A stretch of 64,000 nucleotides of DNA. It comes from Periplaneta americana (Eukaryota; Arthropoda; Insecta; Blattodea; Blattidae). A model generated the notes under the pieces. It saw only the letters and a program-made list of their open reading frames with translations. It did not search any database and was not told where the DNA came from. Each line of letters opens with the position of its first letter. Position 1 is the stretch's first letter. Location: positions 205,932,186-205,996,185 of the forward strand of contig NC_091118.1 in NCBI RefSeq assembly GCF_040183065.1. The letters run 5' to 3'. A program made the translations under genes and the position numbers. Of the stretch, positions 19,549-59,536 are shown in pieces.

Positions 19549-21743
<2,195 letters not shown>

Positions 21744-21795
21744 ATAATAGTAATAATACTAATAATAATAATAGTAATCATAATAATAGTAATAC

Positions 21796-29842: not shown

Positions 29843-29844
29843 TA

Positions 29845-31723: not shown

Positions 31724-34654
<2,931 letters not shown>

Positions 34655-35019: not shown

Positions 35020-35034
35020 ATTACAACAGGCGGA

Positions 35035-35502
35035 TTTACTTACAAATGGCTTTTAAGGAACCCGAAGGTTCATTGCCGCCCTCACATAAGCCCGCCATCG
35101 GTCCCTATCCTGTGCAAGATTAATCCAGTCTCTATCATCATATCCCACCTCCCTCAAATCCATTTTAATATTATCCTCCCATCTACGTCTCGGTCTCCCC
35201 AAAGGTCTTTTTCCCTCCGGTCTCCCAACTAACACTCTATATGCATTTCTGGATTCGCCCATACGTGCTACATGCCCTGCCCATCTCAAACGTCTGGATT
35301 TTATGTTCCTAATTATGTCAGGTGAAGAATACAATGCGTGCAGTTCTGCGTTGTGTAACTTTCTCCATTCTCCTGTAACTTCATCCAGCTTAGCCCCAAA
35401 TATTTTCCTAAGCACCTTATTCTCAAACACCCTTAACCTATGCTCCTCTCTCAGATTGAGAGTCCAAGTTTCACAACCATACAGAACAACCGGTAATATA
35501 AC
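35035..35502 (-). mobile_element. LINE family B copy 4, young 5'-truncated insertion
   Basis: Flanked by a perfect 15-bp duplication ATTACAACAGGCGGA (35020-35034 and 35503-35517). The minus-strand frame is open from the truncation point through VILPVVLYGCETWTL, RLRWAGHVARMGESRNAYR and GRPRRRWEDNIKMDLREVG to the terminal NLRVP. The open frame and intact duplication mark this as the youngest LINE B copy here. It lacks the palm and endonuclease and is not functional. Confidence 0.9.
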
Positions 35503-35787
35503 ATTACAACAGGCGGACACTCAAGATTATTAATAAAAGTATGTTAATATTGGAAACATCTCATTACCGAAATGACTAGTATGATTTGAATAAATACAGC
35601 ATGAATACCAGATGATAACACGCAAACATTCGTTCCTTTAGTAACGATTGAAAATATCTATCCACATTCGGTTAGAAACGAACAACGCAACCAGTATTGC
35701 AATCCATGAGATTAAAAGACGCACTGTCTTTACCCCACAAACTTGCTGTAGGAATCTACCTATTGCTTACAATAGACAGAAACTTTC

Positions 35788-35797
35788 TATAACAGAG
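35788..35797 (+). promoter_or_regulatory. Conserved TATAACAGAG block upstream of IR gene 1
   Basis: The same 10 bases lie 51 nt before the proposed ATG of the second IR gene; here the gap is 50 nt. It may be a TATA-like element or a conserved part of the 5' end. That is inferred from position and identity only. Confidence 0.5.
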
Positions 35798-35847
35798 CGC
35801 AATGCTTCCAGATTTTAATTAGCTGTAATATTGCGCAATTGGAAGTT

Positions 35848-35854
35848 ATGTCAG
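35848..35854 (+). CDS. Ionotropic receptor gene 1, proposed 7-nt coding exon 1
   Basis: ATGTCAG is followed at once by the consensus donor GTAAGT (35855). The exon leaves one base of the third codon, which matches exon 2 at 37141 (acceptor TTGTTTGCAG, two bases completing the codon). The joined start reads MSVQRKFVLQC and leads into a hydrophobic signal-peptide-like stretch. The same arrangement recurs at 49075 for gene 2, which is why I prefer this start to the near-cognate TTG within the acceptor. No transcript evidence was available. Confidence 0.65.
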
Positions 35855-37140
35855 GTAAGTACAAAATTGCCAGTTCACTGTGTAAGTTGCTATGACATTC
35901 TATAGTATTAGTGGCTTGTGCAGCAAATGCTGCAAACTAAGTTCGTTAGACGTTCAAATAAGAATTTTTCAGATTTATTTTCAATGAAAAATACCAGAGA
36001 TTTTGAAAGTTATTTTCTTCCATAATAATGAAACATACTCCCTCTGAATGTTTTTTTTATGTCAAATACTTTTTCTTGAAGCTATCCACCTTCAGTTTTT
36101 GAATTTCAACGTGAAAACGCAAGTAACAATGTCAGGACGATCAGTGGGTTTTACACGTGGGAATAATGGAATAGCTATTTCAGGTCGTTGTGGATTGTAG
36201 GCGAAAGTTAAAAAAGTCAGGTTTGCTACGCTTTCGAACAATAGACATAGCATCTTGGTATAGCTGCTGCATGTAGAGCTTGAAATGTAGAGGGTGAACT
36301 CATTTTATTCTGCTAAGAGATCTTGCTGAAATGATCCGGAGGCTACAAAATTTTCTAGGCCTCTTATTTTATCAGTAAGTAATATCGTCTTTCCTTAGGA
36401 ACTGTAATTTTTGCGTTCTCTCGAGCCAATACTGAATCTACACCACACCGCCATTAAATATATATAAAAAAGACCCAACCCAACTTGATTAATAACTATA
36501 AAAATATTTGATTTTTAATAATAATGTTATTATCTTACGCAAGTTTTGTAGTTTATATATTAAGATCATGGCATTAACTGTAATAATAATTAATTTCTAA
36601 TGGTAATAATGACATCAAACTACCTCACGTTTTGTAGATTTTAATATCCAATACACAGCTGTACTCAGAAAATTATACACCACAGAATCAGACCTGTAAA
36701 TTATTTTTAATAAGTCTTGAATCTTTTAATAACCAACTGAATTTGAACTCTAAATATGTCAGCAATCCTGCCTTCGTGTAATAGCCTATTGTTTATTGTA
36801 GTGTGTGTTTTGTTTTATTTTGAAATGCAATTAGTTCTCAAAACTGATGAAAGATGGATTTTAGAAAATAGGAAAATTATTTAGGAAAACTGAAATTTCA
36901 CTGAAAACTACTGTTTTTCTGAAAAACTTTGGGTTCCAAGCTTCAAAATGAGGGATCATTTATTAAAATCCGTTTAGCCGTTTTCCCGTAATTTCCATTA
37001 TCAGTTCAAATTACAAATATAGATATTACGACACAAGGTTGAGGAGTGAATTTTGCCCAAAACTTAATTGTTTCTAATTTTTTTCCTTTTAAAGTGGCAT
37101 GAGTCATAAAATTATTTTATACTGTACTCTTTGTTTGCAG

Positions 37141-39158
37141 TTCAGCGGAAATTCGTACTGCAGTGTATCTATCTGCTCATTAAGACTCTAATAATAGATA
37201 CAGCAATACTTCCAAAACAAATGACAGAAGAGGAGGAACACATAGTTCTATGTGTCAAAACTATCAGCAACCAGTACTTTACGCCGCATCGAACTCTGCT
37301 AATTTATACACAGGGTTACAAAACCGAGGAGTCTAATATCACACCAGCGGTAAGCAGATTGCTGTATCTTGAATTTCACGTCACTCAAAGCATTCACAAT
37401 GAACAGAATTTTCCTGTCAAGTTAATGAGTTACCCAGATATGTATTTGCACTTTAGCTTCAACGAGAGCAAGTACAATGACAAACAAGGTAGTTATATTA
37501 TGTTACTGTCAAATGTTTCTGCTGGAGAAGATGCTATGCTTAGAAATTTTGCAAAGCTGCTGCAGATCTTGGCGTCTAGTTCATCATGGAATCCTCGCGG
37601 AAGATTTGCTGTATTTCTTTTATTCCAATCAACGTCGAAAAAGAAACAATGTTCTGTGATAAAGAAGATTTTGCAGGATCTTTGGTCGTATAAAGTGATC
37701 AATGTAGTAGTGGTGATAAAGCAAAGACAAGACATAGTCAGTATGGAAATTGAAGTGTTAAATATCTACACTTGGTTCCCATTTCAAAGTCCAAAAGAGT
37801 GTAAGAAAGTTGAAGATATAGTTTTGCTGGATACTTGGATAATGAATGGAGATGGATGGTTCTTGAAGTCAACAAATCTCTATCCCTCCAAATTCCAATC
37901 TCTCAAAGGTTGTCCTTTGAGAGTCGCCGCAATTGATTATGAACCTTTTGTATACGAGGGATTATACGATTCATCTACAAACACTACTGTGTTTAAGAGC
38001 GGGTGGGAAGTGAGAATATTAGATGTTATTACTGAGAAGTTAAACACATCACCGAAGTTTTTAGAAGTACAAGGATATTTCTACGATGTATTCGATGAAA
38101 ATGGTAGTATTAGTGGATTTACTCGAAATCTCTTATATGACGAAGGTGATTTAGCATTCAGTACATTGTACTTAAGAAATGAATTTTTACAACATGGAGA
38201 TATGACGAAGGTATATTACATGAATCCCTGGAAATGGTACATACCTTGTCCGCAAAAAGTACCACGATGGAAAAGCATCACACGTATATTTTCCTACACG
38301 ACTTGGTTGTTTATGTTCTTAGTGCTTTTCTTAGCAGCAGTGTTTATGCGATACATAGCCAAACTGGTGTTCCTGAAACCCGAGACTCAAAATTACAGTA
38401 CGCTAGTGAACAATATACTAAACGCCTGGGTAGTGGTTCTAGGTATTGGAATTTCTGTGCTGCCACGCTCTGATGCTTTGAGAATTTTCTTCCTGTCTTG
38501 GATTCTGTACAGTTTAGCAATAAACACGATATTCCAAGCTTTTCTCACGTCGTACCTGGTTGACCCTGGGTATGAGGATTATATACGCAGTGTTGATGAA
38601 CTGTTAGCGTCTGGTATGAAATACGGTTTCCAACCTTTCATAGACGAAATCTACTTCCAGAACAACAATGACGACTGGCAGTCTAGGACCATAAGAAAGA
38701 ACAGAATATTGTGTCCGTGTCTCGGTAGTTGTTACAACTGGACTGCCCTGCATAGGAATTTCTCCACTCTTTACGTAGAACTCGGACATCTGCAAAATTA
38801 TATGAAGGGAAGCTTCTTCGATGAATTTGGTCGACCTTTGGTTTGTGAAATCCCAGACAGCACGATGGCTTTTATATTCGTCGGGATGATCACGGCAAAA
38901 GGCAGTCCTTTGTTGGACCGTCTTAACTCCCTCATAGGGACAATAATCGAGTCAGGATTGTTCATGCAGTGGGTGAAAGAGTACTTCGACAGCCTTCAAA
39001 TAAAAGCGAAGTCTTTAGCAATAGAGACACTGTCCAATGAGTACTGCAGTCTGACTTTGGGTTACATGCAAGGTGTATTCTTTCTGTACGGGTTTGGAAT
39101 AGGGCTGAGCGTTTTAGCCTTTATGAGTGAGATTTTATATCGCAACTATTTTAAATAA
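37141..39158 (+). CDS. Divergent ionotropic receptor (IR) 1, main exon
   Basis: Codes for nearly all of a 674-residue protein of the insect ionotropic receptor family, variant glutamate-receptor-like chemosensory cation channels in sensory dendrite membranes. In order: a hydrophobic N-terminus (signal peptide), a divergent extracellular region, the S1 ligand-binding lobe from about residue 262 (CPLRVAAIDYEPFVYE, GWEVRILDVITEKL), TM1 about 383-408 (TWLFMFLVLFLAAVFM), a pore loop (ILNAWVVVLGIGI), TM2 about 450-475 ending SYLVDPGYE, the S2 lobe, TM3 about 648-668 and a short cytoplasmic tail. Several N-x-S/T sites lie in the extracellular parts. The canonical glutamate-binding residues are not obvious, as in most divergent IRs; the ligand is unknown. 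The start is a splice acceptor (AG at 37139-37140); no upstream ATG exists in this exon's frame. It is closely related to the gene at 54920-56943, same strand. Confidence 0.9.
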
Positions 39159-39195
39159 TTGTGACGTAGAATGAAAGTGGATCATGAAGCAAAAG

Positions 39196-39198
39196 TTT

Positions 39199-39270
<72 letters not shown>

Positions 39271-39326
39271 TTCTTCTTCTTCTTCTTCTTCTTCTTCTTC
39301 TTCTTCTTCTTCTTCTTCTTCTTCCC
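39196..39326. repeat. (ATC)n(TTC)n microsatellite, probably the LINE E tail
   Basis: About 23 ATC then about 18 TTC units. On the minus strand this reads (GAA)n(GAT)n directly after the LINE E 3' end. The poly-His and poly-Ile frames over it are artefacts. Confidence 0.85.
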
Positions 39327-40109
39327 TTCAAGAGGTCAAATGGCCTGTTACGATCTCACAGTTGAATTTTCAAACCAGCGCTTTTTTGGGTAACCGAGAG
39401 ATCTTTTCCCGTTTGGACGATAGTAGAGCATGACTTTTGGGATTCTATCTCTATGCATGCGATGCAGATGATTTATCCAGTTGTTCTGATAATGTTTTAA
39501 GTGATTAATTACAGGTTCTACTTATAATTCTTCCATTACTTCTTCATTGCGTTTGTGATTCCATTTCGTATATCCCGCTGTATATCTCATAAATTTCATT
39601 TCATTAGCCGTTATTCTGCTTTCGTCTTTCTTCCTCAATGTCCATGCCTCGCTGCCGTAACAAAGTACAGGTCTCGCCAAGGTCTTGTAAAGGAGAATTC
39701 GAGTATGCCTTTATACTAGGGAAGGTTTCATAATGGTGTTAATTATTCCCATTGTTTTGGTGTATTTAGAAATTTTCTGTGAAATGTCTACTTCATCGAA
39801 AAAGATAGGCCTAATGTGTATCCGAGATATGTATAATAATTTATCCTTTCCAATATTTTTGAATCTAAACATATTTTGCTAGGCACAGGGTATTTTCCGC
39901 AGAAGGCCATAATTTTAGTTTTTTTCTTTATAGATTTTCGTATCATATTTAATTCCAATTTTGTTAGAATTAAAAATTGAACGTTGTAATTCATCTTCTG
40001 AGGATACCACCAGAGCTAAATCGTCTGCAAAAAGTAATGAATCTAGTTGTAAATGTCTATTGAGTTGTATATATCCATGAGGCAATTGTTTCATTCTCTA
40101 ATTATTTGA

Positions 40110-40150
<41 letters not shown>

Positions 40151-40628
40151 CAACGGTGAAAGGCCGCAAACTTGCCTTACTCCTGTATGAATTTCTGTCC
40201 AATGCGATAATTTATTGTCACACCTTACTGCAATTAGATTTGTTTTATAGATATTGCATATGTTTGCTGTAAGTTGTTGTGCAACATGGTCTGTGGCTAA
40301 CACATTTAATAATTTATTTCTGTGTACTCTATCAAATGCTTTTTCCAAATCAATGAAAGCAATATGTGCAAATCAAGATTTTCAGGTATAACTCCCTGCA
40401 AAGTTGATTTGAATAATTTCGAGGGAAAAATTGTTCCGGGGTCGGGCATCGAACCACAGACCTCAAAGTGGGCTGACAACCGTCAAGCAACCAACTTCGA
40501 GTGCACACTAACTCCGTGTGACTTAAATTGTGGTTTTCTGTTAAAGAACAGTCACGTGTATTATGCAAATCAAGATTTTTAGGTATAACTCCCTGCAAAG
40601 TTGATTTGAATAATTTCGAGGGAAAAAT

Positions 40629-41566
40629 TGTTCCGAGGACGGGCATCGAACCCAGGACCTTTGGTTTAACGTACCAACGCTCTACCAACTGAGCTACCCG
40701 GGAACTCTACCCGACACCGATCCAATTTTTCCCTCTATATCCACAGACCTCAAAGTGGGCTGACAACCGTCAAGCAACCAACTTCGAGTGCACACTAACT
40801 CAGTGTGATTTAAATTGTGGTTTTCTGTTAAAGAACAGTCACGTGTGCTATGAAAATCAAGATTTTCAGGTATAACTCCCTGCAAAGTTGATTTGAATAA
40901 TTTCGAGTGAAAAATTGTTCCGAGGCCGGGCATCGAACCCAGGACCTTTGGTTTAACGTACCAACGCTCTACCAACTGAGCTACCCGGGAACTCTATCCG
41001 ACACCGATCCAATATTTCCCTCTATATCCACAGACCTCAAAGTGGGCTGACAACCGTCAAGCAACCAACTTCGAGTGCACACTAACTCCGTGTGATTTAA
41101 ATTGTGGTTTTCTGTTAAAGAACAGTCACGTGTATTATGAAAGTCAAGATTTTCAGGTATAACTCCCTGCAAAGTTGATTTGAATAATTTCGAGGGAAAA
41201 ATTGTTCCGGGGTCGGGCATCGAACCCGGGACCTTTGGTTTAACGGACCAACGCTCTATCAACTGAGCTACCCGGGAACTCTACCCGACACCGTTCCAAT
41301 TTTTCTCTCTATATCCACAGACCTCAAAGTGGGCTGACAACCGTCAAGCAACCAACTTCGAGTGCACACTAACTCCGTGTGACTTAAATTGTGGTTTTCT
41401 GTTAAAGAACAGTCATGTGTATTATGCAAATCAAGATTTTCAGGTATAACTCCCTGCAAAGTTGATTTGAATAATTTCGAGGGAAAAATTGTTCCGAGGC
41501 CGGGCATCGAACCCAGGACCTTTGGTTTAACGTACCAACGCTCTACCAACTGAGCTACCCGGGAAC
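40629..41566 (-). other. Four tRNA-like heads in the SINE array
   Basis: Minus-strand tRNA-like segments at 40629-40705, 40916-40992, 41203-41279 and 41490-41566. Each has an A box (TAGCTCAGTTGGTAGAGCG) and a B box (GGTTCGATGCC), an anticodon arm TTGGT-ACGTTAA-ACCAA (loop triplet GTT) and acceptor ends GTTCCCG/CGGAAC with one mismatch. C occupies the U33 position, arguing against use as a translating tRNA. The leftmost unit (about 40431) has lost the tRNA body. Confidence 0.75.
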
Positions 41567-41844
41567 TCTACCCGACACCGATCCAATTTTTCCCTCTATA
41601 TCCACAGACCTCAAAGTGGGCTGACAACCGTCAAGCAACCAACTTCGAGTGCACACTAACTCCGTGTGACTTAAATTGTGGTTTTCTGTTAAAGAACAGT
41701 CACGTGTATTATGCAAATCAAGATTTTCAGGTATAACTCCCTGCAAAGTTGATTTGAATAATTTGAAGTTGGTTGCTTGACAGTTGTCAGCCCACTTTGA
41801 GGTCTGTGGATACAGAGGGAAAAATTGGATCGGTGTCGGGTAGA

Positions 41845-41920
41845 GTTCCCGGGTAGCTCAGTTGGTAGAGCGTTGGTACGTTAAACCAAAGTCCCGGGTT
41901 CGATGCCCGGCCCCGGAACA
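41845..41920 (+). other. tRNA-like head of the inverted terminal unit
   Basis: Same tRNA-like sequence as the array units but on the plus strand, with one base missing in the variable region (CCAAAGTCCC in place of CCAAAGGTCC). It is followed by the SINE tail and the target duplication. Confidence 0.75.
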
Positions 41921-42000
41921 ATTTTTCCCTCGAAATTATTCAAAGCAATATGTGTTTCTAAGTTGAATTCCCGGTGTTTTTCCGTCTTACAATAAGCAAA

Positions 42001-42297
42001 AGTTTCTAGAACGTCTAAAGCAGGGAAGCCAAACTTTCGCTCCCTAAAGCGCAAACATTATCATATCTACTTTCTCCACCCCCTGTCAGTGACTCTGTTT
42101 TCTTTCTGTTTATTTAATCGTTAGCTGCAGAACGTAAACATTCAGTGGCGAGAAGTTTACAGAATATTTCAAAAGGGCACTGTCTACAGTACCAAGATAC
42201 AGCTTCAATAAGGAATGGGAAGATGGTTATTTTGTTATTGATGAAAATAATAAAGTTAATTATTGTCTATTATTTCGCATCCAATTTCCTTACATAC
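42001..42297. other. No supported gene
   Basis: AT-rich, with a 61-codon frame of no recognisable family. May include upstream LINE E sequence. Confidence 0.4.
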
Positions 42298-42305
42298 GTC
42301 ATTAT

Positions 42306-43775
42306 TAGGGAACGGAATTTGGAGCAGTAAAAGCTAGTATTGGCATCTACACAGCCATTTGTTTACAACCCTCTATACCAAGTCCTCCCCTCCATGACAA
42401 ACTCGGAGATCTCTGCACGTCTACAACAGGTGAACGGGACAGTTGCCGCATAAGAACTTCAACATGCAGGTTTGCAGTTCAGAGTGGTGACGTGCAGGTA
42501 TAATGCCGAAAGTGAAACCAACTAACAACAGAAAATTGAAAGACAATATTTGTAAAAGCTCCAGATCGAGTACCAAAATTCAGGAAACAATTCCCTAAAT
42601 TGTCGCTTCCCCCATGTCCAGTTCTTAACAGATGCGGGTCATGGTTAGAAGCTTGCAATAATTATTACGCACATCACCTCCAATCTGTGAAGAAAGTGCT
42701 TCAGTCTTTCGATCCCGATGACACGGCTGCGATTCAAATACGCCAGGAACTGCTAAATAATAGAACAATCGATATTAAGTCAAAATTTTTATATTTACCG
42801 GATGCCATTATTCGATTAGCACAGTCAGGGGTAGAACTAGTTGAGCAAATAAATATTATGAGTACTATTGTAAATAAACTGAGTGCAGTAGAAGGTGAAG
42901 TAGGAAAACGTGTTGGTGAAAAAATGAACAGAGTTTTGATTAAAAATGATAAGTACAGTATTCTTAGTCGGATTTCAGCTGCACTAACTAACACGTGTCC
43001 CAATGACGTCATTCAACATGTGAATTTAATTGACGTATTTTGTTTCAAGTACTCTCCAATTGTCTCTGCGAATGTAGAGCGGAGTTTTTCCATGTTAAAA
43101 AATTTCCTTGCTTGCAACAGAGCAAAGTTGTGTTTTGAAAATTTGAAAATGATATTTACAATTTATTATAAGAAGGCACAGCAGGAATAAATTGTTTCAT
43201 CAACAAAACATAGCATTAATTGAAAAATACCATTTCGTTTGGTGCTACATTTTGTACAACATTTAATGATACTCTATTAGGCTATGTTGTAAATATTGTA
43301 GTATATTATATACAGTATATTCTAAATACTGTAGTGTACGTTGTGTACATATTATCATATTTCATGATATTGTAAATAAAGGTTTTAATTTAACACGCTC
43401 CTGACAGAAAAACACACATATTCAGAGGCGAGTTCCGTACAGAAGACAACTATCAGCCATCAATATTTCCACTGACAAGCGAGGACGCAGGGATTGATAT
43501 TTAATTATGTATATTTGTAATGTTGTTTATTGGTGTCTTGTGCTTTGACAAAAAACACATGTAGTTCAAAGTGAAATGCAGATTATGTATGTAGGCCACT
43601 ATATGTCATTAAACTATTCCATATGTTTATTCTGAAATACGTTTACAGCACGTTGCGTGTAAGTTTGTATGAAGTGGACTGTACTCGTCCATGCAGCTCG
43701 CTTGACAGTCACTGAGTTATGAATATCTATACTGCGTTTCACGATTCTTTATAATACTCCAAATCCCTTTCCCTG
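42306..43775 (+). mobile_element. hAT transposon, family 2, internally deleted
   Basis: The ends are TAGGGAACGGAATTTGGAG and the inverse of CAGGGAAAGGGATTTGGAG. A perfect 8-bp duplication GTCATTAT flanks it (42298-42305 and 43776-43783). The transposase start (42503) and C-terminal part (42600-43190) are joined by a large internal deletion. A T in place of the first C of the left end may impair mobility. Confidence 0.85.
42503..43190 (+). pseudogene. hAT family 2 transposase, internally deleted
   Basis: It starts MPKVKPTNNRKLKD, like family 1's MPKVRHSV start. After about 30 codons it reaches a stop; beyond this an open frame (42600-43190) carries PVLNRCGSWLEACNNYYAHH (the RW-x2-WL segment of hAT transposases, here CGSWLEA), through SPIVSANVERSFSMLKNFLA (C-terminal dimerisation region with the presumed catalytic Glu) to the stop. 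The BED zinc finger and both catalytic Asp regions are missing. Confidence 0.85.
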
Positions 43776-43783
43776 GTCATTAT

Positions 43784-44321
43784 AATACAGTGCGTTCGTA
43801 GCTCGGCCGGACCGTTCCGCGGCGGCCTTGAATGATGATGTTTTGCAACGAAATAGTAGAAACTGATGTTAAAGTAATTGCATCTTAATCAAGAATGGTT
43901 GCTAGTGCACATTTGAAAGTATTCTTAGCATAAAAAAAATTGGTTTTCATGATTTGTTTTGCCCCTCAACAATGGATATTTTGTCTCACGAAAGAATAAA
44001 AAAATGGTCTCACATCAAAGATAATTAATTCAACAATCACCCTGCAAAAGCACTATAAATTTACATCAAGAAGCAGGCTGCTATCAACATTGAAACACAA
44101 AAAAGTCACTAATGTCCGATATCACTCCATTTGACGGTACAGACAAATCGAATGATGGATACTGCTAAGATACAGAAACACAATCGGATGACCATTTGTC
44201 CTTCATACCGAAACGTCAGATTAACCGAGTATCGTTGTACCGTAATGTCGTGTGACCAAAAAGATTCGTGACTTAAAAAGAGAGACCAAAAACCGCTTGA
44301 AACGTGCCCAAAATCTTGAAA
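43784..44321. other. No supported gene
   Basis: A short GC-rich patch (about 43800-43830) in otherwise AT-rich sequence; no frame or repeat end was recognised. Confidence 0.4.
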
Positions 44322-45592
44322 TCTATACTAATAATAAATCTGTAGCCGAAATTTTTCTGGTAATTTTCGATTTTCCAAAAATAATTAGTCCCAACATATA
44401 TAATTAACCACCCTGAAACCGAAAATCGCATTTTTGAAATTTTTGTTTTTCTGTCTGTCTGTCTGTCTGGATGTTTGTTACCTTTTCACGCGATAATGGC
44501 TGAACGGATTTCGATGAAAATTGGAATATAACTTAAGTTTGTTGTAACTTAGATTTTAGGCTATATGGCATTCAAAATACATTATTTAAAAAGGGGGGGG
44601 TTACAATGGGGCCTGAATTAAATAAATCGAAATATCTCGCTTATTATTGATTTTTGTGAGAAATATTACATAACAAAAGTTTCTTTACAAATCATTTCCG
44701 ATAAGTTTTATTCTTTGAATCATTTTGATAGGAATGATATTTAATGAGATAAACGAGTTTTAAAATTAAAATAACTGCCATCTAAGGCCGTATAATGAAA
44801 TAAAAAACAAATGACTTCGTCTATAAGGGGCCTTGGACAGCAACAATCGAAAGCTATGAAAGATAGCCTACGGAGAATGTTTCTGTGTTTGTATGAAATA
44901 ATATCGGAAGCTAAATTAACCGATTTGTGTAATTAATTATTATTTCACCATTGGAAAGTGTAGTTTCTCTAGATGGACATAATGCTATAATGTTATTACA
45001 GTAACTTCTGATATAATATAATGTAATATAATATAATATAATATATAATATAATATAATATAATATAATATAATATAATATAATATAATATAATATAATA
45101 TAATATAATATAATATAATATAATATAATATAATATATAATGTAATATAATATAATATAATATATGTAATGTAATATTAAATAATATAATTTAAGTTATT
45201 TGAAGGGTTCAGAATCATAGTGGGCCAAACGCCATTTACTGAATACGTAGAAAACAAGGGTTAAAATTATTACCATAATTCAATGGAAACCTATAACAAG
45301 TAAAATAAAGTATACACATTAAATCTAAATGATGTCAATGCTCATTAAACTATGGTTGCATGTAATAAAAATTAGAAACATGTTAAAGAGTTGTCATTGC
45401 ACCAATGAGTGGTCTCTGGACCAAAATGATCGAATTTTAATTATTTGGATGCAATTTAAATTAAGTAACATATTAAACGATTTATCTTTCTATCAAACAC
45501 GAATGTTCCCTGGATCAAATGTCCTATTTTAATTATGTAATTACTTTATATTTATTTCTAACGTGTGCAGCGGAGCGCACGGGTACGGCTAG
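44322..45592 (+). mobile_element. Helitron-like non-autonomous element, copy 3 (both ends present)
   Basis: Starts TCTATACTAATAATAAATCT after an A and ends CTAG before a T. The hairpin GTGCAGCGGAGCGCAC (45565-45580) lies 8 nt before CTAG. Body segments match copies 1 and 2 in reverse orientation, including the 'cgcgataatggctgaacgg' block. It contains an expanded (AATAT)n microsatellite. No Rep/helicase gene. Confidence 0.75.
45005..45183. repeat. (AATAT)n microsatellite within Helitron copy 3
   Basis: About 34 five-base units with a few six-base or shortened variants. Confidence 0.9.
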
Positions 45593-46242
45593 TGTACTAA
45601 TACATCCATTAGGGCCAGCATTCTCATTTTTTCTTATTACTTTTTTATGTAACCAATTACTCTGTCTGAAGGCTTGTAAGAATGTCCTAGAACAGGAAAA
45701 ATAAACTCAACATTTTTAATCATCTCTGGGGCATCAGCTATGCAACTGACATGCCTATGACAATTTATTGAGTTCCTATTTTCCCCGGTACATTCGTCAG
45801 CAAACACTGTACGATGCACAGTTTCTGTAATCGCCTGAAAATTAATTGTCATTAGATAATTATACTAAAAAATGATAATTAATAATCATAATATTTTGCT
45901 CTCATATCATCACCAAAACTTTCGTTATACAGTTTCCACAATTTTATAATAAAAAGATTACTGGAGAGATATTGACATTATCAATATTGTACAGAATGCT
46001 TACACCTGCTCGCCTCCTGATCCCTGCTTGAATCTGGGAACATTTTTGATAAGCAATACTCACACTTTTGTGTTTGCTGTTGTTTTTCTTTCAATCGAAT
46101 TAAAGGAGTTAGTAATACATACACATCTCCAGTTATTGAAATCAGTATTGAAATTCTGTTCTTCTCTCACAAGAACCTTGCAATTTTCCACTGCTGATGA
46201 GTTTTGATTTCGTAAATACATAAATTAAAACTATAGCAATGT
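45593..46242. other. No supported gene
   Basis: A 71-codon minus-strand frame at 45852-45637 matches nothing known to me. Confidence 0.4.
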
Positions 46243-46945
46243 AATAGTAATATGCGTTACAAGAGCAGTATGTTGAAATTTTCATGTTCGAGGAAAAGTT
46301 TGAAAAAGCGAAACGTAGTTGAGCTTTTTTAATTTCCGAGAATTAAAAGAAAACACACCGCTCGTGTATCGTACATTATTTTGTGCGAAGATCGTTTATT
46401 ACATACCTGAAAGAGGAATTTCTAATTAGTTGCAATGAAATCTCCATCTTTGTTTCTGTTCAATGATGGCAAATTTGCAAAACAAAAATATTTATCTTTA
46501 ACATTGTTGCTTTAAAATGTTTTCTGTGTTTACTATACTCCAGCAGGCCGTGATATACGTCTGTATTTTTTTCCCCCAGTTTATGGAATCTTGTTGATTT
46601 TTTCACGGCTTCCTTAATGTTACTTGCATCACGAATGCAGTAACTTTAGTGGAGTTGTAGAGTTTACTTAATTTTTGCAAATATTTAAAAGCAATAATTA
46701 ACAGTGCAATTTAGGTGAAATTGCAGTGGTAAGTTTCCAATTTATAATTGTTACTATATTGAACGTCTCTAAAATTAATATGTTAATAGTCTAAAGCAGT
46801 AAAATCAATATGTCACTTAAGCGGTAAGAAGAGGGAAATTATTATGTGTGTTAGGTTGGGAATACTGAATGTGAAATTTTAGACTTTCCGCGGATTGGTT
46901 TTGTGCGGAAAGCAAGCAAATACGCACGATCTCGCACAAATGAAT
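46243..46945 (-). repeat. Interspersed repeat family R, copy 1
   Basis: About 0.7 kb that recurs in the other orientation at 57143-60150 (split by a hAT element) and 60155-60965. Shared words include TGTGCGAGATCGTGCGTATT (one end), TAAACGATCTTCGCACAAAA and CATTCGTGATGCAAGTAAC. No inverted ends or coding capacity were seen, so the class is unknown. Confidence 0.75.
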
Positions 46946-47510
46946 ATTTGTGAAATTAAACTACAGCGCTGTAAATGATAAGTTTTTAAGCCGTAACTCC
47001 AGTGCAGATGATCAGTTCTGTAACGAAATCGAAATTTGAACACATGTTTATGGTGGTAAATGATAAATTTTGCTTCAAATATTCAACCATATTAAACATG
47101 CAGTTTTAATATGGTTAAAATCGTAGCTAAGTAATTTTCACAGTAATTTCAGTAGAGGTTTTGATTTATCTAGAGAAAATCAAAACTCGAGTGAGATTTA
47201 ATTGACTATTACATGATTAGAAGAAAGTATGTAAATATTAAAAGCAATAAAGTATACTCTAATACAATTAAATATTAATTGACTCACTAAAATACTAAAC
47301 TGTCTTGAAAATGTATTATTGTACCGTCTCATCATTACAAATATTCCGCTAGATGGCAGTAGTGTGTTATGATTAGCTGTTCTCTTGTTACCAGTTGTGC
47401 CAACTATACAATCTTCATTGAACTCTATGGACGATTACTAGTAAAGAAGGCTTTGTTGATTCAGCTTCATTTTTATTAAAATAATTGCATTCCACTTGAA
47501 ATTATCAATA
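46946..47510. other. No supported gene
   Basis: AT-rich. No feature recognised. Confidence 0.4.
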
Positions 47511-47512
47511 TA

Positions 47513-48237
47513 CAGGGTGTTTCCGAGGTGGTGTTACAAACTTTCAGGAATGATAGCGAATGGCTCTTGTATCAATTTGAGATAAGGAACCCTGGTCCAG
47601 AAATGACAGAGTCCAAAGTTGCAAGCAAAAATAGTTCTGTGGAAATGAAATAATTTTATTCCTCTATACACCTTATTTATGTGTATTTATCTCTACACAT
47701 TTTACACATACTGTATTCATCTGACGTTGTTTACGTTGTCTACTTACAGTATTCCATTCAATGCGCTGTTTGAGGGATGGGGACAGGAAACTACACTAAA
47801 GCAATGCAGATAGCGTAATGTGTAACGGACATGGTCGGTCCTGATATGCACGTCTGTAGACAGCAGTGTATGTGTACAAGTTGCAGTGTCCAGTAGATCA
47901 GTCCTAGTGAAATGGAGAAGTACATGAGAGCGGAATAAGCAGACCTGATTTTCGAATATGGATGAGCCAATGGGAACAGTAGACAAGCTCACAGATTGTG
48001 TCGGGACAAGTACCCACGTAGAAGACATCCGGCCCGTACCATTTTTCCACGACTGTTCCAAAGGTTAAGGGAAGGAGGGCACGTGGTGGAAAATTGCAAT
48101 TCCATTTCCACACAACTATTTTTGCTTATAACTTTCGACTCAGTCATTTCCGGACCAGGGTTCCTTATCTCAAATTGATACATGTACCCTTCGCCATCAT
48201 CCCTGAAAGTTTGTAACACCACCTCGGAAACACTCTG
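47513..48237 (+). mobile_element. TA-flanked element with ~135-bp terminal inverted repeats
   Basis: CAGGGTGTTTCCGAGGTGGT at the left and its inverse (ACAC... CTCTG variant) at the right lead long inverted repeats of about 135 bp with mismatches. TA flanks both ends (47511-47512 and 48238-48239). Inside is a broken DUF4817-like transposase N-terminus, so this is a Tc1/mariner-type deletion derivative. Confidence 0.75.
47912..48094 (+). pseudogene. DUF4817-like transposase N-terminus, broken
   Basis: The plus-strand frame reads MEKYMRAE, stop, ADLIFEYG, stop, ANGNSRQAHRLCRDKYPRRR, then FPRLFQRLREGGHVV. This is the helix-turn-helix DUF4817 pattern found at the N-terminus of IS630-type transposases in insects. 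Two in-frame stops, and no catalytic domain. Confidence 0.7.
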
Positions 48238-48239
48238 TA

Positions 48240-49013
48240 TATTAAATAATCTCTGATACGTGACTATTCATAATCCGATACAGCGGAAGCTATAACATAA
48301 CCTAAATAATATAAACAAAATAAATGGTAGAAATGTTTTAATTAAGGATGATGAAATGAACATGAATAATTTTAAGAGGTACAGTTATTCAAAGTACAAT
48401 GTTGGCAAACAAAGAAAAAATGCTAGGGAAATGATAAAAACAAACAAATTGTAGGGAGGTCATAAAAATTGTAGGATAAGCAGCCATGATTGGTTGAAAC
48501 ACGTTGTTCCGTACCGTTTCATTCAACAAAAGAAGTACGTTGTAGTAGAAGTGTAATAGTCAATAAAAAACAAATTCAGATGATTAGCTTTATTACTGTA
48601 CTATTCATATGGAACATGTCATACACAATAGCGGAAGACTTGTAAAGTTGTACGATAGGTATTGTGTTATGTAAAATGTGTTATCAAATGCTGTCAAGGA
48701 ATGAATTACGATTAATTTTTTTAACCTCCCTGTACAACACTATAAACTATGGAATACAGATATTTTGTTCTATTTATAAAGGAAGTGACTCATTATTCCA
48801 ATGGGAAACTTGTTAAGTGGAACATTGCGTTTGATATCAGATGGAACATGCAAGCTCGCAATTATTTCGTTACAATGGAAAAATGTCTACTGAACCAATC
48901 AAAATCCGAGTAGTGAGCAGTGCTACAAACCGATGATTAATAAAACTCGGATGGTCTTGACTCAAACATGCAGTGACAATGTCAGTTACGTTTGAAATAC
49001 GCAGCAGAACTTA
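48240..49013. other. No supported gene; upstream region of IR gene 2
   Basis: No transposon end or frame was recognised; probably contains the IR gene 2 promoter. Confidence 0.4.
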
Positions 49014-49023
49014 TATAACAGAG
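49014..49023 (+). promoter_or_regulatory. Conserved TATAACAGAG block upstream of IR gene 2
   Basis: Identical to 35788-35797 and almost equally spaced from the proposed ATG; here it is preceded by TTA, giving TTATATAACA. A shared core promoter element is the simplest reading, unproven. Confidence 0.5.
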
Positions 49024-49074
49024 AGTTATCTTTTTTGGGCCTTCTTGTACTGAAATTTGCTAGCTGGAGTATTA

Positions 49075-49081
49075 ATGTCAG
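49075..49081 (+). CDS. Ionotropic receptor gene 2, proposed 7-nt coding exon 1
   Basis: ATGTCAG followed by donor GTTAGT (49082). The phase matches the acceptor TTGTTCGCAG before 54920. The joined start reads MSDQRKSTFLYVFIVINVL, a good signal peptide. Sequence just after the donor (TAGTACAAAA) also parallels gene 1 (AAGTACAAAA). The intron is 5838 bp and holds an LTR element and a minisatellite. Confidence 0.65.
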
Positions 49082-50789
49082 GTTAGTACAAAACTGCAAA
49101 AATGTTCAGTGCAGATTAACTGTTTAAGATTTAACAACATAGAATAAATTGCAGGTACAATGTCGGTTCACACGACAGTAACTAAAAGAAACGATCCGAT
49201 GTAAATGACGAATTTTCTCAAAATGAATTTATATAGCAAGTAACAAACAGATCTTTAATATGCAGAATGTAAAGGGTATAAGTGTCGTCCTTTTAACAGT
49301 CGTCGGAGACGGTCTACAGGGGCAAAAACGTCCATACAACGTAGGGTCAAAACTTTAGTTTTCCTAGAAAAAAATTATTTTCTTATTTATTTGCCTTACT
49401 GCTTTTATGCTATGGACGAAACGAACACAGGTGCTTGTTTCTCAAGATTTCAAATACAACTGACTGAATTTGCATTTGAATAAATTATTGAAAAAGTGCT
49501 AAATAAACATTGTGAAAAATTCTAATGGGTAAATAAAGAATTAATAAATATTTCTACTGTACGATGCGTGATACAAAGACAAGAAATTTGATAAGATCAT
49601 TTAAATTTTAATTAATAATGATACCGAGATAGTTTGCATCAGTGGAGGGACATTTACAACTCTTGTGATCTAAAATTTTTGTTGTGTATTATTAGTCTAT
49701 CTTCATCACAGACTTTTAAAATTTGAATGAGAACAGATGTTAAAGAAGAAAGAATTGAAAAGATCTTAATATACAGGGAGCACTGTAAATAATGTCATTA
49801 ATTTCGGACTTATTCTTTGAGATATTTCAAACAAAAACGTTTAATACAATTTTACTTGTTTTTGCATCCTTTTCGAAAAAAATATATTTTATATTAAACG
49901 TTTCATAGTGTATATTGTTTTGTGAAAGCTATTGAATTAATTCCCAATATGCTCAGTCAGTTTGAGAAAGCAGTGTATTATGATAATAAATTATGGAAAT
50001 AATTTCAGTTTTGTCCTTTAAATATGCAGAAATTTGATCCGAATAAATGTAAGTTTTCGTTCTCCAAAGGAATTTTAAAACATACAGCAGTGTGACAAAG
50101 ATGTAAAGGTTGTTGTTGCCTGCAGAGAGCCAGATATACGTTGTCGTAGGCCAAGGACCCTGACAGCTGGCGTGTTCGAGACGAGGGTTGAGAAAACGAG
50201 ATATGTAAACATAACACACAAGATTGATTTTAAAGACGTCTAGTGAAATTTTATTTCTTATATGTAAGTTTACCGGCTATCTTTTTAAAGCGAAAGTCTG
50301 ATGGAACTATTTCTAACTGCCTGAAGAAAACGCTTGCAGTACGATAAATGGAGGTTTTTTTTAATAATCAAGTTGACTTATGTAACGTAAAAATAAGCTA
50401 TTCGTATTGCTGTGTTCACCAAATAGTTAATTTTTACCTATAGAGTTTTAAATATTTTAAAATCTTGTTTTTGTAACGTGAATTAAGCACCATTATTGTT
50501 TTCTTTCTGCAGAATATTAAATTGAAATGAGAATGTAGAAATATTTATTAATCTTTTAAATTTATTTTGCAATAAGCGTATCTGTGTTCTCTGAATATTT
50601 AATTCAAATTAGGTTGTAGAGTTTAGTTTCAATTTTTCAAGATTTTCTTTAACGTGAAGAGAACAATGTTTGTTCTCCGCTCTGAAAGACAGTTTAAACA
50701 CAAAAATTAAACAGTATATGTGTATTTTTGTAATGGATTTAAAAACAATGTACGTGGCAATGACCTTCAACTTTCTTGTTCATAAGTAG
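49082..50789 (+). other. IR gene 2 intron, left part
   Basis: AT-rich intron sequence with no supported gene. Short frames near 49953-50219 are not recognisable. Confidence 0.45.
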
Positions 50790-50807
50790 CCGAGTAAGGA
50801 GGTTTGT

Positions 50808-52883
50808 TCAGAGCAAGGAGAGCTCGCTGGCCACGGGTTGGTCCTCGGCGTCCATCAGGAACACTTCATCCCGACCAAGACGGAGTATACGGCGCCGGAC
50901 GTCCACCGTCGCATCGAGTAACCGCATGGCGTCGAGTCCCAGGACGACGTCCTCGGTGATGTTGGCGACGAACACCCACATCTCCAGTTTCCTCTTCCCC
51001 AAGGTCAGGTCCAGGAAGACCTCTCTCTGGATGGGCAAGCTCTCGCCTGAAGCAGTCCGTAGCTCGTATTGGCGCAGCGGCGTCCTCCCAGGTAGGCCCC
51101 GCACGACGTCTGGTGTGGCGATAGTGAGCATCGCCCCGGTGTCCACCAGTACTCTGCATGGACGGCCTCTTATCCGTCCTTCAGCAATCAGCCCATCGTC
51201 GCATCTTCTGTCGACCGGTTTCAGGACGAGCCGAGGGGACGGTGATGATGGCGCCGACGTGCTCCTCCTAGCATCGGCCCCCTCTCTCTCCTGACTGTAG
51301 CCAGGTCGGTCGCAACTCCTCCGCAGGTGCCCAGGTTCACCGCAGGACCAGCAGGTGGGCACCCGTCGTCTCCGTTGCTCAGGCAACTGTTGGTTTCTCT
51401 CGGTGTCAGCCACCTCTCTCTCCTGCCGGTGGCCGTAGCGGTCGCAGTCCCTTCTCAGGTGTCCCGGTCTGCCGCAGGACCAGCAGGTGGGCGCCCGTCG
51501 TCTCCGCCGCTCCGTTGACTGCTGGCGCTCCTCGACGTCGGCCACCTCTCTCTCCTGCCTGTGGCCGGATTGGTCACAGTCCCTTCTCAAGTGTCCCGGT
51601 TTGCCACAGGACCAGCAGGTGGGCGCCCGTCGTCTCCGCCGCTCCGTTGACTGCCGCTCGGGTGGCTTCGGTTGGCGCCCCCCAGCATCCGTCGCCGTGA
51701 CGCTCCTGATCCAGTGCGGTGTTGAGACTCCCGCCGCCGACTTGGCCGCCTCCATCCTGAGGGCCGCCGCCAGAGCTGCGTTGATGGTACGATGCTCTGC
51801 CAGGAGTAGCTGTTGTCTGATTTCGGGGTCTCGAACGCCGCTGCCGAAGGTGTAGGCCGCCTCTCCAGCGATGAAGTCATTAGGTAGGCCCCTGAGGGCC
51901 TTATGGGCAAGTTGTTCCACCGCCATCGCGAATTCTTGCAGGGACTCGCCTGACTGTTGGACCCTCGTTTTCAGTTGGGTCCTGAATGCTGCCGCAAGTT
52001 GATGGTCACCATAACGTCCCTCCAAGGCCGCCATTATCTCAGCGGCTGTCCCATCTTCTGGAACGCTATGATTAATCTCCGACGCCTGTCCCTGAAGCGC
52101 GGCCAGCAGCTGAGTGGTTTTCTCTTCTGGCGTCCACCCATTGTGCTCTGCGATGGCCTCGAACTGGCGACGGAATATCGCCCAAGACGTCGTACCGTCG
52201 AACTTCGGCGTCTTGACGTTGTGATGTCTGGCTGAAGGCGATGATTCCGCAGGGCCACTATATGGAGTCCTCAACTCTGTGGCCGCTTCTTGCATGGCAC
52301 GTCGAACCTCCTCGGCAACTATCTGTTTATGTTCTCTAGCCTGGCGATCCACCAACGCGAGAATGTGCTTGTTTTCCTCGGCGTGTTTGTCCATCACCTC
52401 ACTCGTCTTGTCCAGCAACTCGCTTGTGTGCTCTTGACGACGCTCGAGATCGCGGATTTTGCCGTCGAAATGGTCTACCTCCTGTCTCAACTCGGCTACT
52501 GTCTCGTTTATAGTTGTAAAATTCTGGTTTAGTTTATCCAAATCGGCCTTAAGTTCGTCTTTTACGATGGCGACAATTCCATCTACGTGGGCCGAAACGC
52601 TTTCAATTTGCGTAGTGACGTCATCTTTCACTCCGCTTATGTCGCCTTTCACTCCGCTTATGTCGCCTTTCACTCCGCTTATGTCGCCTTTCACTCCGCT
52701 TATGTCGCCTTTCACTTCACTTATGTCGTTCTTAACCTCACTGATGTGCTTGTTCATGTCGTTCATGTCGTCTTTCATTTCTGCTTTCACGTCACTTATA
52801 TCACTTTTCACCTCACTGATGTGTTTGTTCATTTCTGCTTTCATTTCCGTGATGGCTTGCAGGATCTGCTGTAGGTTCTCCAT
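50808..52883 (-). CDS. Gag-protease polyprotein of LTR retroelement (intact frame)
   Basis: 691 residues. About 1-200: heptad-like coiled coil with four near-identical DISGVKG repeats. About 220-390: retrotransposon Gag capsid-type domain (FDGTTSWAIFRRQFEAIAEH, LLAALQGQASEI, QQSGESLQEFAMAVEQLAHK). About 430-545: three CCHC zinc knuckles (CWSCGKPGHLRRDC and two variants), each in a duplicated 40-odd-residue module rich in Arg. About 565-690: aspartic protease with the DTGA active site (near residue 580) and VVLGLDAM flap/ILG-like motif. The frame closes soon after the protease. Gag would assemble particles and bind RNA while the protease matures it; both roles are by family knowledge. Known gypsy elements continue into reverse transcriptase, which is absent here. 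No stop or frameshift, suggesting youth or constraint. Confidence 0.85.
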   Translation of the reverse strand: MENLQQILQAITEMKAEMNKHISEVKSDISDVKAEMKDDMNDMNKHISEVKNDISEVKGDISGVKGDISGVKGDISGVKGDISGVKDDVTTQIESVSAHVDGIVAIVKDELKADLDKLNQNFTTINETVAELRQEVDHFDGKIRDLERRQEHTSELLDKTSEVMDKHAEENKHILALVDRQAREHKQIVAEEVRRAMQEAATELRTPYSGPAESSPSARHHNVKTPKFDGTTSWAIFRRQFEAIAEHNGWTPEEKTTQLLAALQGQASEINHSVPEDGTAAEIMAALEGRYGDHQLAAAFRTQLKTRVQQSGESLQEFAMAVEQLAHKALRGLPNDFIAGEAAYTFGSGVRDPEIRQQLLLAEHRTINAALAAALRMEAAKSAAGVSTPHWIRSVTATDAGGRQPKPPERQSTERRRRRAPTCWSCGKPGHLRRDCDQSGHRQEREVADVEERQQSTERRRRRAPTCWSCGRPGHLRRDCDRYGHRQEREVADTERNQQLPEQRRRRVPTCWSCGEPGHLRRSCDRPGYSQEREGADARRSTSAPSSPSPRLVLKPVDRRCDDGLIAEGRIRGRPCRVLVDTGAMLTIATPDVVRGLPGRTPLRQYELRTASGESLPIQREVFLDLTLGKRKLEMWVFVANITEDVVLGLDAMRLLDATVDVRRRILRLGRDEVFLMDAEDQPVASELSLL

Positions 52884-52912
52884 TGTCGATAATGTCCCAC
52901 TCCTGACACCAA

Positions 52913-53628
52913 TGTGAATTTTATTATTAACAACAATGTAATTTATTCGTCACAACAATAATTCCTTTCTACAATTCGCCTTAAACGCTCTCGTCAACAA
53001 TTGGATCTTCACTCAACACAGTATTCGTTATAGCACTCCACCGACGACAATGACAATTTACTTGGACTATTACGCACAACAATGAACTGTTAATCTTAAC
53101 TAATATTTACAAAGCACTATTTACAAATCAGAACTACCAGTTCTCAGTTCACAGTTCGTCTATCTCAGTCACTCGAGTTCACTGTACTCGAACTCGGGTC
53201 CCTCCAACTGCGGTCCACTGCACTCGAACTCAGGTCCCTCCAACTGCGGTCCACTGCACTCGAACTCAGGCCTTCGGCTGCTGACGCAGTTGCGGACGCA
53301 CACTCGAGTCGAACTCCGGTACACAAGACTGGCTTCCTTGCTCTGGCTTTCTCACTGACTGAATAACTGAAAACTCCTGTCGTTCCTTCGCGACCGTAAT
53401 TTATAACCACAGCGACGTAGCCTCGAAAGTTCGAATTCGCGAGTCTTCCATTTCGACGGATTTCTCGGCCTCTCTAGGCAAGCAGAAGATGCGCGCGCAA
53501 ACTCTTTCCACTCTCTCGCCGCGTTGGCCCCTTTCCCCTCTCAGCCGCGCGCCATTCCAAAGTGCTCCGCGCGATCTGCTTTCTTGCGGGACGCTGGTCG
53601 TGAGTTCGAATCTCACGTCGCTGTCACA
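52913..53628 (-). repeat. 5' LTR of the gag-protease element
   Basis: Begins TGTGACAG and ends TTCACA, giving TGTGA/TCACA inverted termini, 716 bp. It has a TATA-like GTTATAAATTA (about 53408-53398) and an AATAAA polyadenylation signal (about 52943-52938). Three near-identical direct repeats containing GACCGCAGTTGGAGGGACC lie at about 53180-53260. The first 37 bases contain the inverse of a tRNA T arm. Confidence 0.75.
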
Positions 53629-53735
53629 ATACTAAAACCTAAAAATGGAAATAAATATATCAAACTGTTAACTAGTGAAGATGAATATCTTAGAACAATT
53701 GACAATTTGGGCTCTCTTAAAACTGTAGTAATATA

Positions 53736-54716
53736 TTAGGTACAATAGAGAGTAGTAATATATTAGGTATAATGCAGAATAGTATAGTATTAATTACAGT
53801 GCAGAATAGTAATGTATTAGGTACAATACAGAATAGTAATATATTAGGTACAATTCAGAGTAGTAATATATTAGGTATAATGCAGAATAGTATAGTATTA
53901 ATTACAGTGCAGAATAGTAATGTATTAGGTACAATACAGAATAGTAATATATTAGGTACAATTCAGAGTAGTAATGTATTAGGTGCAATGCAGAATAATA
54001 TAGTATTAATTACAGTGCAGAATAGTAATGTATTAGGTACAATACAGAATAGTAATATATTAGGTACAATTCAGAGTAGTAATGTATTAGGTATAATGCA
54101 GAATAGTATAGTATTAATTACAGTGCAGAATAGTAATGTATTAGGTACAATACAGAATAGTAATATATTAGGTACAATTCAGAGTAGTAATGTATTAGGT
54201 ACAATGCAGAATAGTAATATATTAGGTACTATTCAGAGTAGTAATGTATTAGGTACAATGCAGAATAGTATAGTATTAATTACAGTGCAGAATAGTAATG
54301 TATTAGGTACAATACAGAATAGTAATATATTAGGTACAATTCAGTGTAGTAATGTATTTAGGTACAATGCATAATAGTATTGTATTAGGTACAATTCAGA
54401 ATAGTAATGTATTAGGTACAATGCATAATAGTATTGTATTAGGTACAATTCAGAGTAGTAATGTATTAGGTACAATGCATAATAGTATTGTATTAGGTAC
54501 AATTCAGAGTAGTAATGTATTAGGTACAATGCAGAATAGTATAGTATTAATTACAGTGCAGAATAGTATAGTATTAATTACAGTGCAGAATAGTAATGTA
54601 TTAGGTACAATACAGAATAGTAATATATTAGGTACAATTCAGAGTAGTAATGTATTTAGGTACAATGCATAATAGTATGAATTAGGTACAATTCAGAGTA
54701 GTAATGTATTAGGTGT
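53736..54716. repeat. ~1-kb minisatellite, 27-bp unit in 108-bp higher-order unit
   Basis: The 27-bp unit (ATTAGGTACAATACAGAATA plus 7 bases) repeats about 36 times. In the first 600 bp four variants form a 108-bp unit, with TATAGTATTAATTACAGTGC once per unit. Because the unit is a multiple of three, frames stay open for about 200 codons (NSNVLGTIQ-type repeats), but this is not a gene. Confidence 0.9.
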
Positions 54717-54919
54717 GCTGTATATGAGTAATTTGGCATGGAGAATTGTGATGCTCCAACGAATTATTGAAAACTTCTGAATTCAGAATTTTTATTAACT
54801 CCAATTGAAGATAAATATATTTCTTAAATAAAATATTGAGTGACAATTAAAATAAAAGATTATATCTAGAAAATTTCCTACTGAATTGATAATATTTACT
54901 CTTCATATATTGTTCGCAG

Positions 54920-56943
54920 ATCAACGGAAGTCCACGTTCCTCTATGTATTTATAGTCATTAATGTGCTGGAATTATATGGAACAATATTGCCCAACCAAA
55001 TGACAGAAGTAGAGAAGAACATAGTTCGATTTATGAAGATCATCAGTGATCAGTACTTTAAGACACATCGAACTTTGGTGATTTCTACATCCAGCAATGG
55101 AACAGAAGTGCATACAACCCACAGATTGAATACCACCTCAACAGAAATCAGTTTGAAGCGTGTTGAGTTTTACGTCTTTCAAAACATTCACAGTGAAGAG
55201 AATTTTCCCGTGAAGGTTCTCAATTATCCCGATCAGCAGGGACAGTTGAACGTCAATGAACGCGAGTACACTGACAAAGAAGCGAGTTACATTATATTGC
55301 TGTCAGAGGTTTCCCTTGGAGAAGATGTTATGTTTAAAAATTTTGCAGAAATGCTACTGATGTTGGCGTCTAGTTTATCGTGGAATCCACGCGGAAGGTT
55401 TCTTGTATTCATTTTATCTCGCACAGATTTAAAAAATAAACAAAGTTCTGTAATAAGAAGAATTTTAGTGGAACTCTGGAAATATAAAGTGATAAATGTA
55501 GTGGTAGTGATAACAGAAAAACAAGAAGTAAAAGGCAAGGAATATGAAGTGTTCAATGTGTACACATGGTTCCCATATGAAAGCTTAGAACAGTGTAAGA
55601 AAGTTGAAGATTTAGTATTGCTTGACACTTGGGTCATGACTGAAAGTGGTTACTTGATGAAGTCTGCAAATCTGTACCCTTTGAAGACGCAGAACCTTAA
55701 TGGTTGTCCTTTGAAAGTAGCTACAACGCAATATGTTCCTTTCGTCGAAGAACCTATTTACGATTCAGCAACGAGCAGTAACGTGTTTAAGAGTGGGTGG
55801 GAAATTAGAATGTTAGATACTATTACTGAGCGATTAAACACATCAGCAAAATATTTAAACGTGCAAGATTTCTACGATGTCTTCGAAGAAAATGGAAGTG
55901 TTACAGGATTTACTCGAAGTTTTATGTATGACGAAGGTGATGTAGCTTTCAGTTCTTTGTTCTTGAGAAATGAATTTCTTGCACTCTCAGACATGACGAA
56001 GGTATACTACATGAATTCCTGGAAGTGGTACGTGCCTTGTCCACAAAAAGTTGCACGTTGGAGAAGCATATTACGGATATTCTCCTACACGACATGGTTT
56101 ATAATGTTCTTAGTACTGTTCTTCGCAGCTCTATTTATACGGTACATTGCAAAGCTCCTGGTTTTGGAGCCTGAGCCTCAAATTTACAATACAGTAGCGG
56201 AAAATATACTCAACGCATGGGCGGTCATTCTAGGTGTTGGCATATCTGAGCTACCACGCTCGGATGTTTTGAGAATATTCTTATTAGCTTGGATCGTCTA
56301 CAGTTTGGCAATAAACACGATATTCCAAGCTTTTCTGACGTCATACCTGGTTGATCCAGGCTACGAAGACCACATTCGCAGTTTGGATGACCTATTGTTG
56401 TCGGATATGAAGTATGGCTTCGATCTTTTCGTCGACAACATGTACTTCAAAAATGTTAACGATGATTGGCAATCTAAGACTATAGCAGAGAACAGAATAA
56501 TTTGTCCATATTTGGATGATTGTTATGAGTGGACCGCTCTTCACAGGAACTTCTCCACGCCTTATCCAAAACTCAGACATGCCGAACACTATGTCAAAGG
56601 TAACTTCATCGATGAATTTGGTCGACCTTTAGCTTGTGAAATCCAGGACGACACAATGGCTTTTATCTTCATCGGAATGGTCACGGCGAAAGGCAGTCCA
56701 TTGTTGGACCGGTTTAACTCTCTCATTGGAGGGATAATCGAGTCGGGATTGTTCATGCAGTGGATTAAGGAATCATTCGTACTGCAACAAATAAAAGTAA
56801 AATACTTAGGAATATGGACACTTACTGATGAGTACTGCAATTTGAATTTGGAACACATGCAAGGTGTTTTCGTCCTGTACGGATTTGGAATTTGTATGGG
56901 TATTGTAGTGTTAGCTTTCGAGATACTTGCACAACGTTCTTAA
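54920..56943 (+). CDS. Divergent ionotropic receptor (IR) 2, main exon
   Basis: Codes for nearly all of a 676-residue paralogue of IR 1. Segments in common include LPNQMTEVE/LPKQMTEEE near the N-terminus, NPRGRF, YKVINVVVVI, VLLDTW, FKSGWE, DDWQSKTI, EFGRPL and GSPLLDR. The order is signal peptide, divergent extracellular domain, S1 lobe from about residue 270 (CPLKVATTQYVPFVEE), TM1 about 388-411, pore loop (ILNAWAVILGVGI), TM2 ending SYLVDPGYE, S2 lobe, and TM3 about 653-674 with almost no cytoplasmic tail. Presumed ligand-gated cation channel in chemosensory neurons; the ligand cannot be inferred. It begins at splice acceptor TTGTTCGCAG, with no ATG. No internal stop or frameshift, so probably functional. 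Confidence 0.9.
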
Positions 56944-57142: not shown

Positions 57143-57340
57143 AACTTTTGTGCGAGATCGTGCGTATTTGCTTGCTTTCCGCTCAAAACCAATACGCGGT
57201 AAGTGTGAAATACCACATTCAGTATTCCCAACGTAACACACATAACAATTTCCCTCTTCTTACCGCTCAAGAGACATATTCATTTTACTGCTTTAGGCTT
57301 TTAACATATGATTTTTAGAGACGTTTAACATAGTAATAAT

Positions 57341-59536
<2,196 letters not shown>

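Follow-up and report, generated by a model that had tools for sequence, protein, structure and literature searches.

Two divergent ionotropic receptor (IR) genes, here A and B, lie on the + strand of the analysed window (the whole 64-kb stretch of Periplaneta americana contig NC_091118.1, to which all positions refer), and as judged from their sequences they are very probably tandem duplicates of one divergent IR gene, with a common TATA promoter, a short leader, a 7-nt first coding exon, a phase-1 intron and a signal-like stretch at the beginning of the main exon. Their features are as follows.

35520..35847, + strand: upstream segment of gene A (putative promoter), alignable with the upstream segment of gene B and preceded by a LINE-like repeat whose match ends near 35502
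35788..35797, + strand: TATA-box-like sequence TATAACAGAG of gene A, 60 nt before its ATG
35848..35854, + strand: 7-nt first coding exon (ATGTCAG) of gene A, with GTAAGT as its donor
35855..37140, + strand: 1286-nt intron of gene A in phase 1, splicing predicted from sequence
37141..39158, + strand: main exon of ionotropic receptor A, to the stop, with Lig_chan and LBD_receptor domains
48735..49074, + strand: upstream segment of gene B (putative promoter), alignable with the upstream segment of gene A
49014..49023, + strand: TATA-box-like sequence TATAACAGAG of gene B, 61 nt before its ATG
49075..49081, + strand: 7-nt first coding exon (ATGTCAG) of gene B, with GTTAGT as its donor
49082..54919, + strand: predicted 5838-nt intron of gene B in phase 1, containing a gag/protease-like open reading frame (ORF) on the - strand and a 27-nt satellite
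54920..56943, + strand: main exon of ionotropic receptor B, to the stop, with Lig_chan and LBD_receptor domains

All but seven coding bases of each gene are carried by the main exon, and the predicted spliced proteins comprise 674 residues (A) and 676 residues (B) with zero internal stops. The tiny exon contributes Met-Ser and a single base of the third codon, which specifies Val/Asp, and the acceptors end in TTTGCAG and TTCGCAG. Stop-to-stop translation detected no Met upstream of residue 30 in either main-exon frame, so that without the tiny exon there would be no start codon ahead of the hydrophobic N-terminus in either gene. A first-pass annotation had proposed an ATGTCAG with a GT donor upstream of each large IR exon, main exons that open without an ATG at acceptors of the same phase, and products of 674 and 676 residues, and each of these was recovered here, the phase being 1 and the frames remaining uninterrupted after splicing. 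Its proposal of a duplicated gene structure with introns of 1.3 and 5.8 kb is likewise supported by the same exon, phase, donor block, TATA spacing and upstream DNA in the two genes, while of the matched signal peptides what stands is a hydrophobic N-terminus in both proteins, by hydropathy alone.

Over 670 aligned positions, proteins A and B show 63.4% identity, and their domain and structure matches fit divergent ionotropic receptors. Both proteins scored above the Pfam cut-offs for PF00060 (Lig_chan; 34.5 and 40.0 bits, cut-off 30.8) and PF24061 (putative IR ligand-binding domain; 39.7 and 38.5 bits, cut-off 27), and both were under the cut-off of 30 for the glutamate-site domain PF10613 (19.4 and 17.1 bits); an NCBIfam search returned no match. 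In sequence searches against solved structures, the matches listed (best 60 of 110 and best 60 of 67) were ionotropic glutamate receptors, mostly GluN1, together with GluD1, GluD2, GluA2 and kainate-type entries. The S1 Arg binds glutamate in ionotropic glutamate receptors, and IRs diverge from it; in a profile alignment to GluD1 (9jrg), which is weak and possibly shifted, the Arg of TITPERES lies opposite a Phe that is preceded, three residues before it, by an Arg. By analogy, A and B probably function in taste or contact chemosensation. An AlphaFold2 model from the two-sequence alignment was uninformative (mean pLDDT 32.6).

The divergence between A and B amounted to dN 0.234 and dS 0.882 (NG86), or 0.247 and 0.728 (YN00), with a pairwise dN/dS of about 0.27, which indicates that the pair evolved mostly under purifying selection; these and all other conservation figures rest on two sequences, A and B. 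A third IR copy or pseudogene was not found in the 64-kb window, tblastn giving E < 1 for the two main exons only. It is unlikely that one of the genes, most likely B, is a decaying copy that is no longer efficiently spliced: B has a weaker donor (T at +3), a weaker start context (T at -3 of the ATG, no purine) and an intron grown to 5.8 kb, but its full-length frame is intact, and the dN/dS points to divergence mostly under constraint, a measure in which recent loss would leave no trace.

Met30 and its neighbourhood (QMTE) are kept in both genes, and the first 26 main-exon codons, ahead of this Met, are less constrained and evolve faster (dN 0.557, dS 0.880, NG86). Past the donor consensus, intron positions +7 to +16 (35861-35870 and 49088-49097) are identical at nine of ten bases; conservation past donor +6 exceeds what splicing needs, and it could mark a promoter or intronic element. 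These observations would suit a true start at Met30, with the conserved block as a 5' UTR exon or promoter element and the ATG in ATGTCAG incidental. We nevertheless regard a Met30 start as quite improbable, since both genes have an open frame free of gaps from exon 1 to residue 30, the ATG, phase and donor are conserved jointly, and the peak 12-residue hydropathy falls from 1.9 and 2.4 in the full-length proteins to 0.8 and 0.6 from Met30, so that a channel subunit whose extracellular part comes first would lack a signal sequence.

Over the 23 bases from the ATG of the 7-nt exon, A and B are identical at 21. Since 73 of 147 fourfold degenerate sites are identical between the two genes, unconstrained DNA is expected to be about half identical, and the binomial P of the 21/23 match is about 3e-5 at 0.5 (7e-4 without the ATG and GT). 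We then considered all ATG-to-donor exons shorter than 120 nt with a compatible acceptor phase (45 in 34780-37100 and 227 in 47000-54880) and scored their donors with a matrix representing the general donor consensus. The donor of the ATGTCAG exon ranked 1/45 in A (score 8.9) and 2/227 in B (score 5.0), the candidate outranking it in B being an unrelated site within B's intron. Among 293 same-length candidate pairs, the ATGTCAG pair was the most conserved (z 6.4), and the runner-up (z 4.1) combined B's exon with a LINE word at 35315; when both regions were dinucleotide-shuffled 200 times, no shuffle gave a pair above z 5.0 or matched the real pair. None of 1000 dinucleotide shuffles equalled the local score of the block; among random window pairs 4 of 488 did so, as did 12 of 1000 when this control was repeated. 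One of these 12 exceedances was the two IR exons themselves, ten were listed repeats or simple-sequence arrays paired together, and the remaining one had a listed array on one side alone. The 9-mer ATGTCAGGT has four + strand copies in the window, against a shuffle mean of 0.17, and one - strand copy, and elsewhere than in the first exons (24209, 35315 and, on the - strand, 2788) it always falls within copies of one LINE-like repeat, so that the 9-mer by itself is not discriminating; the extended block ATGTCAGGTWAGTACAAAA is confined to the two first-exon sites when both strands of the window are considered. A chance or repeat-derived match, with the real first exons elsewhere, could draw on these LINE copies and on the random-pair scores, but it is highly improbable in view of the shuffle results, the repeat-rich make-up of the exceedances and an upstream homology that falls on exactly the exon-1 anchor.

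This upstream homology, which the first-pass annotation had described as a block common to both genes, extends over about 330 bases alignable beyond chance. The 8-mer TATAACAG lies 60 and 61 nt before the ATGs of A and B, followed by AG in both, and has a third + strand copy in the window at 29843. Global alignment of the upstream segments (328 bases in A, 340 bases in B) was matched by 0 of 300 dinucleotide shuffles (z 6.3) and by 0 of 1000 random window pairs; identity was 64.4% versus 64.8% in the shuffles, the significance residing in fewer gaps. Similarity was weaker over the nearest 60-100 bases, matched in 500 trials each by 3-13 shuffles and by 10-13 random pairs; over 130 and 160 bases, none of 500 shuffles matched it, but 5 and 3 of 500 random window pairs did, respectively. 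The alignable segment of A reaches nearly to the LINE-like fragment. Comparisons of similar length elsewhere in and around the two genes gave no such signal, as shuffles readily matched the scores of the intron starts (232 of 300, z -0.6), of the DNA downstream of the stops (300 of 300, z -2.2) and of the DNA beyond the LINE fragment (278 of 300, z -1.2; the A side of this control, 34700-35052, has its last 17 bases inside the LINE match). The last 328 intron bases were marginal (z 1.7; 24 of 300 shuffles), and the last 60, 100 and 200 were matched by 39, 174 and 13 of 500 shuffles, respectively; there may be weak similarity near the acceptors of A and B. Comparison of the introns with blastn yielded four matches (E 4e-4 to 0.22, 53-60% identity), of which the strongest was in opposite orientation, and no convincing homology. 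Beyond the coding regions, gene B has an AATAAA at +107 after its stop, while none of the five poly-A hexamers tried was present within 742 bases after the stop of A.

For A and B as duplicates with a 7-nt first coding exon, we propose the following course of expression. Given the usual spacing from a TATA box, transcription would start about 30 nt downstream of it, near 35818 in A and 49044 in B, and a leader of about 30 nt would precede the ATG; gene A has a further ATG ahead of its start codon, at 35802, which follows the TATA box and lies upstream of this predicted transcription start. The first exon would end after its seven coding bases, and removal of the phase-1 intron would join Met-Ser and the split third codon to the single large exon, whose opening hydrophobic stretch is most likely a signal peptide. 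The role of exon 1 would be to supply a promoter-proximal start codon.

The A/B pair is a well-resolved example of an already known kind of IR gene structure, and IR biology as known is unchanged by it. In the available sections of Robertson et al. 2018 (PMC6175461), 5' introns that barely interrupt the coding region are described within the cockroach's largely intronless IR clade, so that the contrast with intron-poor IRs drawn by the first-pass annotation is softer than it implied. According to the same sections, the largely intronless, massively expanded IR clade of Blattodea (BgerIr196-950, ZnevIr156-222) consists of divergent IRs that, like A and B, have a single large coding exon; almost the whole coding sequence lies in that exon and any intron sits close to the 5' end, as we also found in A and B. 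The 5' introns of that clade are termed idiosyncratic there, and those sections do not give exon lengths, whereas A and B have a common 7-nt exon, phase and upstream block. The divergent IRs of Drosophila, as covered in the accessible part of Croset et al. 2010 (PMC2924276), are mostly single-exon genes with 19 of 25 introns in the first half of the gene, a 5' bias similar to that of A and B; a tiny start exon is not described in that part. The expanded IRs of Campodea and Frankliniella, according to extracts of PMC6938034 and PMC7570057, include intron-bearing subclades whose introns were gained after the expansion of intronless ancestors. In Campodea these introns are kept throughout each lineage and lie, where the extracts give a position, about a third to half along the coding region, in contrast to the start-codon-adjacent introns of A and B; for the thrips Frankliniella, where the gain also followed the expansion, the extracts give no positions. 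Beyond the general statement of Robertson et al. 2018, no exact precedent for IRs with so small a first coding exon was present among the literature matches listed, and extracts of PMC6482461, PMC11302349, PMC8956072 and PMC4899716 contributed nothing decisive.

What A and B add is a pair of paralogues that, at dS near 0.9, have the minimal exon, its phase, the donor flank and the promoter spacing in common, which suggests that the tiny-exon arrangement most likely predates their duplication. The pair also provides a searchable start module, consisting of TATAACAGAG, about 50 nt, and ATGTCAG followed directly across the exon boundary by GTWAGTACAAAA, which could help to annotate the N-termini of IR models that have no start codon; as a scan pattern it can be written as TATAACAG, 45 to 75 bases, ATGTCAGGTWAGT. 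A broader reading, which we offer tentatively and consider rather doubtful, is that the 23-nt start/donor block and the TATA box at -60 form a compact regulatory/start module under selection subfamily-wide, located upstream of many start-less IR exon models. If this were true, the additional conserved bases after donor +6 would be the mark of an element in the intron that governs receptor choice or splicing.

Repeats are prominent in and around the receptor genes. The intron of B contains, antisense to the gene (50808-52949, - strand), a 713-codon ORF (2142 nt) that has an aspartyl protease domain and matches the CCHC knuckle three times; the direct-repeat search listed no long terminal repeat pair in this intron. 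A 27-nt satellite forms a 989-nt array at 53726-54714 in the same intron. Subtraction of the gag/protease-like ORF and the satellite leaves about 2.7 kb, and the extra length of B's intron is probably at least partly due to later insertions, the intron having presumably been swollen by transposon and satellite DNA. Upstream of gene A, a TCTA microsatellite spans 2.9 kb (31748-34651; about 723 copies, 97% match) and ends about 0.4 kb before the LINE fragment that precedes the gene, and between the receptor genes a 287-bp tandem repeat occupies 40454-41764 (4.6 copies, 96% match). A hAT-like (DUF659) element is present in two inverted copies (19538-21748 and 57336-59547) that are 99.6% identical over 2212 bp, which suggests recent transposition; one copy carries a 530-codon open frame (57578-59170), and in the other the frame is split into two overlapping frames.
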